From Bifidobacterium bifidum ATCC 29521 = JCM 1255 = DSM 20456 (GTDB lineage Bacteria; Actinomycetota; Actinomycetes; Actinomycetales; Bifidobacteriaceae), in contig NZ_AP012323.1 of the NCBI RefSeq assembly GCF_001025135.1, positions 248,001 through 312,000 on the forward strand: DNA of 64,000 nt, read 5' to 3'. Shown here piece by piece: positions 3,201-55,880 of this stretch. The position numbers were made by a program, and so were the translations under genes. Numbering within the stretch: the first letter of the stretch is position 1; each line of letters begins with the position of its first letter. Under the pieces are notes generated by a model. It saw nothing but the letters and a program-made list of their open reading frames with translations. It had not been told where the DNA came from and searched no databases.

Positions 3201-6136
3201 ACAACGCCCACGGCAACACGCCTTGGGGCTCCGACTTCCACATGAACGTGAACCTCCAGATGAACTACTGGCCGACCTATTCGGCCAACATGGGAGAGCT
3301 CGCCGAGCCGCTCATCGAGTATGTGGAGGGTCTGGTCAAGCCCGGCCGTGTGACCGCCAAGGTCTACGCGGGCGCGGAGACGACGAACCCCGAGACCACG
3401 CCGATCGGCGAGGGCGAGGGCTACATGGCCCACACCGAGAACACCGCCTACGGCTGGACCGCACCCGGTCAATCGTTCTCGTGGGGTTGGAGCCCGGCCG
3501 CCGTGCCGTGGATCCTGCAGAACGTGTACGAGGCGTACGAGTACTCCGGCGACCCTGCCCTGCTTGATCGCGTGTACGCGCTGCTCAAGGAGGAATCGCA
3601 CTTCTACGTCAACTACATGCTGCACAAGGCCGGCTCCAGCTCCGGTGACCGCCTGACCACCGGCGTCGCGTACTCGCCCGAACAGGGCCCGCTGGGCACC
3701 GACGGCAACACGTACGAGAGCTCGCTCGTGTGGCAGATGCTCAACGACGCCATCGAGGCGGCCAAGGCCAAGGGAGATCCGGACGGTCTGGTCGGCGATA
3801 CCACCGACTGCTCGACCGACAACTGGGCCAAGGGCGACAACGGCAATTTCGCCGATGCGAACGCCAACCGTTCCTGGAGCTGCGCCAAGAGCCTGCTCAA
3901 GCCGATCGAGGTCGGCAACTCCGGCCAGATCAAGGAATGGTACTTCGAAGGTGCGCTCGGCAAGAAGAAGGATGGATCCGCCATCAGCGGCTACCAGGCG
4001 GACAACCAGCACCGTCACATGTCCCACCTGCTTGGACTGTTCCCCGGTGATTTGATCACCATCGACAACTCCGAGTACATGGAGGCGGCCAAGACCTCGC
4101 TGAGGTACCGCTGCTTCAAGGGCAACGTGCTGCAGTCCAACACCGGCTGGGCCATTGGCCAGCGCATCAATTCGTGGGCTCGCACCGGCGACGGCAACAC
4201 CACGTACCAGCTGGTCGAGCTGCAGCTCAAGAACGCGATGTATGCAAACCTGTTCGATTACCATGCGCCGTTCCAGATCGACGGCAACTTCGGCAACACC
4301 TCCGGTGTCGACGAAATGCTGCTGCAGTCCAACTCCACCTTCACCGACACCGACGGCAAGAAGTACGTGAACTACACGAACATCCTGCCCGCCCTGCCCG
4401 ACGCCTGGGCGGACGGCTCGGTGAGCGGCCTCGTGGCCCGCGGCAACTTCACCGTCGGCACGACCTGGAAGAACGGCAAGGCCACCGAAGTCAAGCTGAC
4501 CTCCAACAAGGGCAAGCAGGCGGCCGTCAAGATCACCGCCGGCGGCGCCCAGAACTACGAGGTCAAGAACGGTGACACCGCCGTGAACGCCAAGGTCGTG
4601 ACCAACGCGGACGGCGCCTCGCTGCTCGTGTTCGATACCACCGCAGGCACCACGTACACGATCACGAAGAAGGCGAGCGCCAACGTGCCCGTCACCGGCG
4701 TGACCGTGACCGGCGCCAACACCGCCACCGCAGGCGACACCGTCACTCTGACGGCGACCGTCGCCCCGGCCAATGCGACCGACAAGTCCGTCACCTGGTC
4801 GACCTCCGACGCCGCCGTAGCTACGGTCAACGCCAACGGCGTGGTGACCACGAAGAAGGCCGGCAAGGTGACCATCACCGCCACGTCGAACGGCGACAAG
4901 ACGAAGTTCGGTTCCATCGAGATCACCGTCTCCGCCGCGACCGTGCCCGTCACCAGCGTCACCGTTGCCGGCGACGCCGCGATGACCGTCGATGGAGAGC
5001 AGACCCTGACGGCGACCGTCGCCCCGGCCAATGCGACCGACAAGACGGTCACGTGGAAGTCCTCCGACGCCACTGTGGCGACGGTTGACGCCAACGGCAA
5101 GGTCGTCGCGAAGAAGGCCGGCGAAGTGACGATCACCGCCACGGCCGGTGGCGTGTCCGGCACGCTGAAGATCACGGTGAGCGACAAGGCCCCGACCGTC
5201 ATCCCGGTCCAGTCCGTGACCGTGACAGGCAAGCAGGAGCTCGTCGAAGGCGCCTCCACGACCCTGACGGCGACCGTCGCCCCGGCTGACGCGACCGACA
5301 AGACGGTCACGTGGAAGTCGAGCGACGAGTCCGTCGCCACGGTCGACAAGGACGGCGTCGTGACCGCCAAGAAGGCCGGCACGGTGACCATCACCGCCAC
5401 GGCCGGTGGCGTGTCCGGCACGCTCCACATCACCGTGACGGCCAAGCCCGTCGAGACCGTCCCCGTCACCAGCGTGGAGGTCACCGTCGAGGCCGGCACC
5501 ACCGTCTCCGTCGGCAAGACACTCCAGGCCACCGCGACCGTCAAGCCCGGCAACGCCACCAACAAGAAGGTGACGTGGAAGTCGAGCGACGAATCCATCG
5601 CGACGGTCGACGCCAACGGCGTCATCACCGCGAAGAAGGCCGGCAAGGTCGTCATCACGGCCACCTCGACCGACGGCACGGACAAGTCCGGCAGCGTCGA
5701 GATCACCGTCGCGGATGAGACCAAGCCGACGCCCGACCACAAGTCCGTCAAGGCCGATACCGGCGACGTGACCGCCGGCAAGACCGGTACGGTCACCGAG
5801 CCGAAGGACGTGGCGGGCTGGAAGAGCCGCTCCATCATCAAGCAAGGCAAGCTCGGCAAGGCCGAAATCGCCGACGGCACGCTCGTGTATGCGGCCGGCG
5901 ACAAGACCGGTGACGACAGCTTCGTCGTGCAGTACACGATGGCCGACGACACGGTCATCGACGTGACCTACAGCGTCACGGTCAAGGCCGCCGAAACCGG
6001 CAAGAACGACGGCGACGGCAAGGGCGACGGTGTCGCGAAGGCCGGCGCCGCCGTCGGCGCGCTCGCCGGCCTCGGCTTGATGCTGCTCGCCGTCGGAGTG
6101 AGCGTGGTGATGATTCGCCGCAAGCACTCCGCCTGA
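257..6136 (+). CDS. afcA: 1,2-alpha-L-fucosidase, GH95, surface anchored
   Basis: This enzyme hydrolyses terminal Fuc-alpha-1,2-Gal linkages of milk oligosaccharides and mucin O-glycans outside the cell, by inversion. At 1959 residues it has the length of B. bifidum AfcA. Residues 1 to about 36 are a signal peptide. Residues about 51-265 and 271-490 are two copies of one domain (both contain PSADTTLQ and FGEKF), followed by an Ig-like domain to about 576. The GH95 catalytic region covers about 577-1474, with N997/N999 in [10 protein letters not shown]1142 in SPEQGP and D1342 in FQIDGNFG. Four Big_2 Ig-like repeats begin near 1477, 1563, 1649 and 1734. A membrane helix at about 1930-1952 followed by RRKHSA anchors the protein. 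No LPXTG motif is seen. It is transcribed alone, with tandem hairpins downstream. Confidence 0.98.
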
Positions 6137-18888: not shown

Positions 18889-19012
18889 TGTGCCAGCCAG
18901 ATTGTCGTGGCGTTGCAACGGTTTCATGGGTTGTTCCCTCATATTCGCACGTGTTTGAGCTTCGCGTGACTCGGTCGGATAACAGGAACTTCATCCTTCG
19001 GCGCGAAAGCGG

Positions 19013-19206
19013 CATCTGCGTTTCGAGGGGGTGATTTCGTCTCGCCCAAACATCTATCTACGTTTCGAGGGGTTGCTGTCTGCCAGTATACGAAGTATGA
19101 GGGGCGGAATATCGCCATCAATATAGGGAGGATTGACGAAAAGCAACCCCTTGAAATGCAGATAGATGTCTGCGAGGGCTGCGATCAACCCCTTGAAACC
19201 GAGAAA
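19013..19206. repeat. Family-1 dyad element, copy A
   Basis: Four related ~20-base units are present. Two point right (ATCTGCGTTTCGAGGGGGTG at 19014 and ATCTACGTTTCGAGGGGTTG at 19056), and two point left (CAACCCCTTGAAATGCAGAT at 19144 and CAACCCCTTGAAACCGAGA from 19186). Units in each arm are 42 bases apart and the centre is 68 bases. The same design recurs at 33656-33864 and 48840-49048. Confidence 0.85.
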
Positions 19207-19375
19207 GTGGTGTTGCGGACTCTTTTCGTGTGGTGGCGCTTGATTATGTTGTGGCTTGGCTGCGACATATTGCGAGTGCACTGTCGATGATGAGTGAATG
19301 GCGGTGGGGATGCCATTCGATGATATGAAGCTCGTCAAGCGTGGAATCTCCAGTGTACGAGCACGAATCCGCTCG

Positions 19376-19492
19376 TTTGCGTCCCTAAGTGCGCGCCGAA
19401 ACGACGACCGTGCGCACATAGGGACGCAAACAGGGGCATTTGCGTCCTTATGTTCGCGCGCTTGTCGTTTCGGCGCGCACTTAAGGACGCAA
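19376..19492. repeat. Family-2 dyad element, copy A
   Basis: The core GCGTCC occurs rightward at 19379 and 19442, and GGACGC leftward at 19422 and 19485. Both pairs are exactly 63 bases apart. Flanking matches (GTGCGCGCCGAAACGAC with GTCGTTTCGGCGCGCAC) make the whole element a large imperfect palindrome. The second copy lies at 55661-55775. Confidence 0.85.
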
Positions 19493-22039: not shown

Positions 22040-22105
22040 ACTGCCCCCGCAGGGGTGTCACGAAGCGACTGGGGGAGTCTCCGCCGATCAGGCGGGCAGA
22101 ACTCC
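22040..22105. repeat. GC-rich intergenic repeat, copy 2
   Basis: GCCCCCGCAGGGG is followed by GTCACGAAGCGACTGGGGG, the signature of the window-wide GC-rich family. Confidence 0.55.
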
Positions 22106-23716: not shown

Positions 23717-23774
23717 GTTTCCCGGCGCATTCAGCCGGCGGATTCGTGGCCTATAGGCCGGATCCGTCCAAAAT

Positions 23775-23884
23775 ACGGGTTGAAATCGCCGAAATCTACT
23801 ATTCCCCGTGTGAAATCGCCGTTTTTGAACCTTAAAACGGCGATTTCACACGGGGAATTGCCAAGAACGGCGATTTCAACCCGT
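23775..23884. repeat. Dyad element with TGAAATCGCCG units
   Basis: This is a 110-base near-perfect palindrome. TGAAATCGCCG occurs rightward at 23781 and 23811, and CGGCGATTTCA leftward at 23838 and 23868, both 30 bases apart. The ends are ACGGGT and ACCCGT. It lies in the gap before the metallophosphoesterase gene. Only one copy was found in the window. Confidence 0.85.
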
Positions 23885-23964
23885 AATTCAGTGTCCCGGC
23901 CCGCTCAAGACACGCCATGGTGCTGTCAGGCACGGTCAAGGTGGTATGTACTACGCTGTGAGTT

Positions 23965-33473: not shown

Positions 33474-33617
33474 CCCCCCCCCAGTCGGCCTTACGGCCGG
33501 TGGTGCCGTCCGTAGGCGAAGGCGAGCCGGCCGGCGAGCGAATAAGGTCGCGCCCGCAGGACGGGCGTCCTTGACTGCAGGGCCCGAAGGGCTGTCGCGA
33601 AGCGACTGGGGGTGGTC
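33474..33617. repeat. GC-rich intergenic repeat, copy 5
   Basis: CCCCCCCCAGTCGGCCTTACGGCCGG, the segments GCCCGCAGGACGGGC and GGGCCCGAAGGGC, and a final GTCGCGAAGCGACTGGGGGTGG form paired ends of one composite hairpin. It sits directly beside the family-1 element. Confidence 0.6.
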
Positions 33618-33655: not shown

Positions 33656-33864
33656 CTATCTGCATTTCGAGGGGTTGATTCGACGGTCGCGAAACATCTA
33701 TCTACGTTTCGAGGGGGTGCCGAAACGCGATACCTGGAGTATTGAGCGCTAATCGCCATTGGAACCATGCCGTTCTGGAGGCGTTCATACTTGGCTACCA
33801 ACCCCCTGAAACGCAGATAGATGTCCCATGGGACTCGAATCAACCCCTTGAAAGCGAGATATCG
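33656..33864. repeat. Family-1 dyad element, copy B
   Basis: Rightward units start at 33658 and 33700, and leftward units at 33799 and 33841. Each pair is again 42 bases apart, with a 79-base centre. The units read ATCTACGTTTCGAGGGGGTG and CAACCCCCTGAAACGCAGAT. The surrounding 562-base gap holds no gene. Confidence 0.87.
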
Positions 33865-48839: not shown

Positions 48840-49048
48840 CTATCTGCGTTTCGAGGGGGTGATTCGGGATGCGCCGGACATCTATCTACGTTTCGAGGGG
48901 TTGATAGCCAAGTATAAACGCTACGGGAATCGCATGATTCCAGCAAGAATCAGGTCGAAATACTCCGCATATCGTGTTTTGGCAACCCCTTGAAACGCAG
49001 ATAGATGTCCCCAGACTGCAAAATCACCCCCTCGAAACGCAGATAGGA
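48840..49048. repeat. Family-1 dyad element, copy C
   Basis: Rightward units start at 48842 and 48884, and leftward units at 48983 and about 49025. Each pair is 42 bases apart, with a 79-base centre as in copy B. It lies between the tRNA-Arg terminator and the end of the LacI gene, filling nearly the whole gap. Confidence 0.87.
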
Positions 49049-55660: not shown

Positions 55661-55775
55661 TTTGCGTCCGTAAGTGCGCGCCGAAACGACGACCGTGCGC
55701 ACTTACGGACGCAAATCGGGCCTTTTGCGTCCATATGTTCGCGCACTTGTCGTTTCGGCGCGCACTTACGGACGC
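55661..55775. repeat. Family-2 dyad element, copy B
   Basis: GCGTCC occurs at 55664 and 55727, and GGACGC at 55707 and 55770, with spacings of 63 bases exactly as in copy A. Apart from a few substitutions, the rest of the element matches copy A at 19376-19492. Confidence 0.87.
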
Positions 55776-55786
55776 TTTGGGAGCGC

Positions 55787-55880
55787 CCCCAATCTCGCTC
55801 CGCTCGACAGCCCCCTGTCAGCGGGAGTGCGGCCAACGCTCCCGCTGGCGGGGCTGTCGCAAAGCGACTGGGGCGGTTCA
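55787..55880. repeat. GC-rich intergenic repeat, copy 7
   Basis: CGCTCGACAGCCCCCTGTCAGCGGGAG, then CTCCCGCTGGCGGGGCTGTCG and CAAAGCGACTGGGGCGG. It directly adjoins the family-2 element; the whole gap 55501-56093 holds only these repeats and the ridA hairpin. Confidence 0.6.

Follow-up and report, generated by a model that had tools for sequence, protein, structure and literature searches.

Intergenic four-unit elements with fixed helical spacing in Bifidobacterium bifidum and related species

The elements described here belong to a large intergenic family, apparently undescribed so far. Its unit sequence and spacing are conserved, while the letters of the spacers and of the centre are nearly free and their length is not. 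The mechanism that we favour, with a probability of roughly two in three, is that each element would serve as a docking platform on double-stranded DNA, with four phased sites for a protein whose existence we infer. Three copies (Table 1) are located in the window, that is, in the whole 64,000-nucleotide stretch analysed, which covers positions 248,001–312,000 of the 2,211,039-bp genome of B. bifidum.

Table 1. Coordinates of the three element copies in the window and of their parts.
Feature	Position	Strand	Remarks
Element copy 1	19012..19207	.	inner start-to-start distance 88 bp, centre 68 bp
Copy 1 outer left unit	19014..19033	+	
Copy 1 inner left unit	19056..19075	+	
Copy 1 centre	19076..19143	.	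68 bp, unrelated to 79-bp centres
Copy 1 inner right unit	19144..19163	-	
Copy 1 outer right unit	19186..19205	-	
Element copy 2	33656..33862	+	strand is the conserved-centre orientation; inner start-to-start distance 99 bp
Copy 2 outer left unit	33658..33677	+	
Copy 2 inner left unit	33700..33719	+	
Copy 2 centre	33720..33798	+	79 bp
Copy 2 inner right unit	33799..33818	-	
Copy 2 outer right unit	33841..33860	-	
Element copy 3	48840..49046	-	copy under study, centre reversed; inner start-to-start distance 99 bp
Copy 3 outer left unit	48842..48861	+	
Copy 3 inner left unit	48884..48903	+	
Copy 3 centre	48904..48982	-	79 bp, 68% identical to copy 2 when reversed
Copy 3 inner right unit	48983..49002	-	
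Copy 3 outer right unit	49025..49044	-	

All 12 units predicted in the preliminary description were found at their places; with 3 or fewer mismatches allowed there are 12 matches, where chance predicts 0.01. The spacing that it had reported also holds, with unit starts 42 bp apart in 6/6 arms and centres of 68, 79 and 79 bp. The ends of the outer arms are mostly TATCT...AGATA. Copy 3 lies between a tRNA-Arg(CCG) and the gene of a LacI-type regulator. The statement that the centres share little sequence turned out to be wrong for copies 2 and 3, whose centres are 24% identical as written and 68% identical once one of them is reverse-complemented (at most 44% in 2,000 shuffles); the 68-bp centre of copy 1 has no relation to these two. 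When the 79-bp centres of the whole genome are brought into one orientation, a clear consensus is obtained, with the blocks CCnAAACgCGATA, GTATt, AtTGGAATCATGCGGTT and tATACTtGGcc.

The window contains other repeats as well. A second long hairpin family has two copies, at 19376–19490 (just after element copy 1) and 55661–55775, which are 91% identical and consist of a ~52–54 bp inverted repeat with an 8-nt loop, TTGCGTCCnTAAGTGCGCGCCGAAACGACGACC... A hairpin with 55-bp arms and an 8-nt loop, GTTGAAATCGCCG..., is located at 23771–23888 and has no relation to the element. A GC-rich 30-bp repeat ending in GCGACTGGGGG or GCGACTGGGGC occurs three times (22046–22075, 33583–33612 and 55845–55874), and four tandem copies of a ~258–264 bp repeat, 62–100% alike, occupy 4744–5713.

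In the 2.21-Mb host genome there are 19 element copies, 17 of them with four recognisable units, one with three and one with the inner pair alone, and in addition one divergent five-unit copy at 1,134,764–1,134,994 (L212:2966-3194; G000:C1). One arm of the latter holds three units and the other arm two, at the usual 42-bp period, and the copy is ~26 kb from a dif-like site at 1,160,714. The unit gives 63 genome matches at up to 3 mismatches, all within the 19 elements, and its 14-bp core falls in elements in 59/59 matches at up to 1 mismatch; no unit was thus found outside the elements in the host genome, such as an autoregulatory or guide-RNA site. Among 112 Bifidobacterium genomes, the family was detected in 38 with a first, sequence-only model and in 44 with an improved one, the carriers including B. 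colobi, B. felsineum, B. cebidarum, B. olomucense, B. scaligerum and B. callitrichidarum. Since 68 of the 112 species have no detectable copy, the element is not essential to the genus. An exact-sequence search of ~85,000 species genomes found the exact inner unit in Bifidobacterium only, and the queries used had no match in phage, plasmid and viral-contig collections, which speaks against a phage or plasmid origin. The open-access literature on Bifidobacterium repeats, to which the search for a named repeat family was confined (a description in a subscription journal is possible), gave no description of the family, and nothing was found there on a recombinase-in-trio idea. At L121, L127, L128 and L214 (G014) and at L135 (G043), two subfamilies, one with a 79-bp and the other with a 68-bp centre and with different cores, adjoin at ~25–40 bp like eight-unit composites.

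We now consider the geometry, for which 181 copies from ~31 species were parsed. It is important to point out that a conserved motif serves the finder as anchor for the inner units, such that the inner-unit phase is partly assumed, while the arm period was left free within 34–50 bp. The period was found to be 42 bp in 331/338 arms (165/167 left and 166/171 right). The inner start-to-start distances fall into clusters at about one helical turn from each other, namely 88–89 bp (n=48), 97–100 bp (n=124), 110 bp (n=4) and 120–121 bp (n=2), the three remaining values coming from misparsed or five-unit copies. Random spacing throughout the genome, by which the preliminary description would have been refuted, was thus not what the copies showed.

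In three comparisons of orthologous copies, the centres are 0.77, 0.79 and 0.63 identical, to be compared with 0.79, 0.82 and 0.65 for the flanks; the spacers (0.81, 0.89 and 0.67) change slightly more slowly than the flanks, and the units are at 0.89–0.95. Insertions and deletions behave differently. The flanks have 32 indel events (252 gap columns) in 2,987 columns, while the elements have only 5 events of 1 bp each (5 gap columns) in 3,233 columns, a ~7-fold difference (Fisher p=1.5e-6) that applies to copies recognised by the model, which misses heavily damaged ones, in pairs picked from loci found earlier. Indels are thus rare in spacers and centres in which substitutions are flank-like, which means that selection acts on length and not on letters. 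This comparison between species lends strong support to the earlier proposal of a tighter constraint on geometry than on sequence, as in a protein-bound DNA structure, the protein-bound part of it being our reading.

The core of the unit evolves in an unusual way. It is uniform in each genome, in all four units of nearly all copies, and differs between species: TTTC..GTTG in the host, TTTC..GCTG in G014/G043, TTAC..GTTG in G023/G031/G020, TTAC..GCTG in G054/G015, ..GTAC in G016/G052/G072 and TTACGGGTAGTGG in G030/G041/G053, with others in existence. Several species share orthologous gaps occupied by the element, beside trpS, tgt, clpB, cysS, a fatty-acid synthase gene, a putP-like gene and dxs. 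At the tgt locus, the junction AGGCAAAAGGGC.GGAAATTGTGA/ is common to G014/G043 and G052 and the cores differ; likewise, the 189/385-aa locus has a common junction and different cores in G014 and G031. The core has changed in situ at orthologous loci, in all four units together. Gene conversion is unlikely to have made the units uniform, because the spacers within a genome are only ~47% identical. The concerted shift implies a trans-acting partner of evolving specificity, and a protein of this kind would be the simplest reading of the core turnover.

According to the docking mechanism, a single sequence-specific protein, probably oligomeric, would bind each of the four 20-bp units. Within an arm, the two units, being exactly four helical turns apart, would present themselves on one face of the DNA, and the ~70–80 bp centre would fix the rotation between the arms such that both could join one looped complex. 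Against this mechanism stand the many species with no detectable copy, the loss of several copies from G043 by imprecise deletion, and a modest signal of pairing between the outer units of the two arms (z=2.8). The broader picture, in which the elements are genus-wide nucleoprotein platforms with a selected four-site helical geometry, a site sequence turning over together with a fast-evolving putative binder and an invertible centre, is put forward tentatively.

Concerning the placement on the chromosome, 0/87 copies are intragenic according to a simple gene caller. Convergent gaps are enriched (OR 2.3, p=0.009) and divergent gaps depleted (OR 0.43, p=0.015), and the sampled neighbour genes are unrelated, with housekeeping and transport functions. 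In the five complete genomes (G000, G014, G043, G030 and G041, the dif position of G014 being carried over from G043), the copies crowd near the origin and less so near the terminus, and are sparse in the middle of the replichore. Only 10/95 copies lie at 0.5–0.8 of its length, a count that should be taken as a lead only, as it pools species with common loci and is raw with respect to intergenic space. At L125, L139, L137, L153 and L168, the boundary of the copy coincides exactly with the T-run or stem of a terminator-like hairpin of the neighbour gene. From the restriction to intergenic DNA, the excess in convergent gaps, the deficit in divergent ones and the thinning at mid-replichore, a role as a fixed chromosome-architecture or insulator-type complex in transcription-poor gaps may be suggested, as a guess that is rather doubtful. 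The same placement speaks against the elements being operators of an ordinary transcription regulon. Genome-uniform and species-specific sites would be typical of a diverging regulator, but the gap preferences, the unrelated neighbours and the absence of single or promoter-type sites leave this option with a very low probability.

Another option considered was a structured RNA, with the element transcribed into a ~200-nt hairpin that would serve as a terminator, a stability element or a small RNA. The window copy folds strongly (z -13), which is to be expected of any inverted repeat. Near-perfect palindromes are found among the 68-bp centres, and local hairpins are seen in some centres. However, when arms were compared with arms shuffled among copies of the same genome, the pairing signal was absent (z -0.5 for the spacer and -0.2 for the inner unit), the covariation term is 0.39, that is, about zero, and an all-pairs scan gave no consistent covariation between arms. 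The lack of covariation argues against a selected stem, be it of an RNA or a cruciform. Moreover, Rfam at gathering score reports tRNAs only in the window, a consensus scan finds no terminator-like site at copy 3, and the tRNA-Arg has its own hairpin and T run ahead of that copy. A hairpin would also leave the quantised distance between the arms unexplained. We consider the RNA option highly improbable. A coding origin, with 42 bp as 14 codons, was set aside as well; the frames look partly open, but the copies contain stops and lie in gaps, and the units run in both directions.

The preliminary description had also named a small mobile element. The corresponding explanation is a non-autonomous MITE, in which both units of each arm would be sites for a transposase and the transposition of so short an element would let only suitable helical spacings through; work on IS50 reportedly indicates that short transposons can require such phasing. 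Like MITEs, the element is ~200 bp, non-coding and bounded by inverted repeats, here TATCT...AGATA with TA at 35/38 ends in G030/G041/G053 and at 28/34 in the host. The copy number varies by species, and most host copies occupy positions that do not recur among the sampled loci of other species. On the other hand, IS630/DDE_3 is found in 4/112 genomes and a Y1 transposase in 7/112, the host being in neither set, and no larger, full-length relative with these ends was seen; the units are confined to complete or nearly complete elements. Neither a clear target duplication nor a precise empty site appeared in the comparison between species; the absences in G043, a sister species without several of the copies that G014 has, show ragged edges, with a 13-bp remnant at one locus, and are thus imprecise deletions. 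The spacing is also still protected long after insertion, and orthologous copies are kept while their units all change in concert in place. The mobile half of the earlier proposal is thereby weakened, and a MITE origin is unlikely. Its IS630-type version with a CTAG target can be discarded, since the host has no DDE_3 and the base preceding TA, C or G depending on the group, belongs to the unit. Nor does transposition account for a 238-bp piece shared, at 98.7% identity, by L041:3998-4235 and L042:3963-4199 (G000:C1 ~1,151,300 and ~1,195,600). This piece begins within the element and stops 56–60 bp beyond it, at L041 adjoining an aldo/keto reductase-like gene seemingly without a start, so the event was not bounded by the element.

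The centre can be inverted. The sister species G030 and G041 agree in the order of flanks, outer units, spacers and inner units, all of which are 93–100% identical, while the 68-bp centre is 50% identical as it stands and 94% identical when inverted. Weaker signals come from G023 vs G031, G023 vs G070 and G031 vs G014. Beyond G030/G041, two loci are convincing and three suggestive. Most close pairs keep the orientation of the centre, which indicates that inversion is rare, and it may be due to passive recombination between the inner inverted repeats. One could instead regard the flipping as the function itself, the inner units being putative recombinase sites and the outer ones accessory sites; the phasing would then fit synapsis of sites ~90 bp apart. 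As with the invertons profiled in PMC11892184, a segment bounded by inverted repeats is seen in both orientations at one locus, here between species. The element differs from these in being very short and flipping rarely on the time scale of species, with no known invertase, and short inverted repeats could let the loop flip passively. No recombinase gene was identified near the copies, and a search of the window copy for a sigma-70-like promoter gave none. This makes an invertible switch quite improbable.

The docking platform can finally be set beside known systems. ERIC and BOX are long imperfect palindromes that are only intergenic, occur in tens of copies and keep orthologous positions, all of which the element shares; it differs in its four units at fixed phase, its nearly indel-free but drifting spacers, and its species-specific yet genome-uniform core. 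In plasmid parS-type centromeres of P1 and P7, protein boxes that vary between relatives flank a bendable centre in a fixed geometry. The element likewise has repeated, putative boxes, specific to each relative, on both sides of a centre in a fixed geometry, but dozens of copies per chromosome and larger units; its likeness to parS, as to invertons, is one of working and not of proven membership. For REP/BIME with RAYT transposases, species-specific intergenic repeats with a proposed dedicated trans-acting partner have been described (PMC3733652). The element resembles them in both respects. It is without their GTAG-tagged 20–40 bp hairpin, the host unit ATCTGCGTTTCRAGGGGTTG showing neither a GTAG tag nor an evident internal palindrome, and Y1 transposase is absent from the host, which rules out membership, and from nearly all other carriers. 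The element is thus of the dispersed intergenic palindromic kind with an unusual evolution, and MITE, REP/RAYT and Rfam RNA each fail on at least one tested feature.

The family offers a clear natural example of DNA between sites that keeps its length and not its letters, in many species and dozens of copies. If the interpretation as nucleoprotein platforms is true, the species-specific cores would also record how DNA-binding specificity has changed in evolution, and finding the co-evolving partner protein would reveal what organises or marks the chromosomes of a major gut genus.
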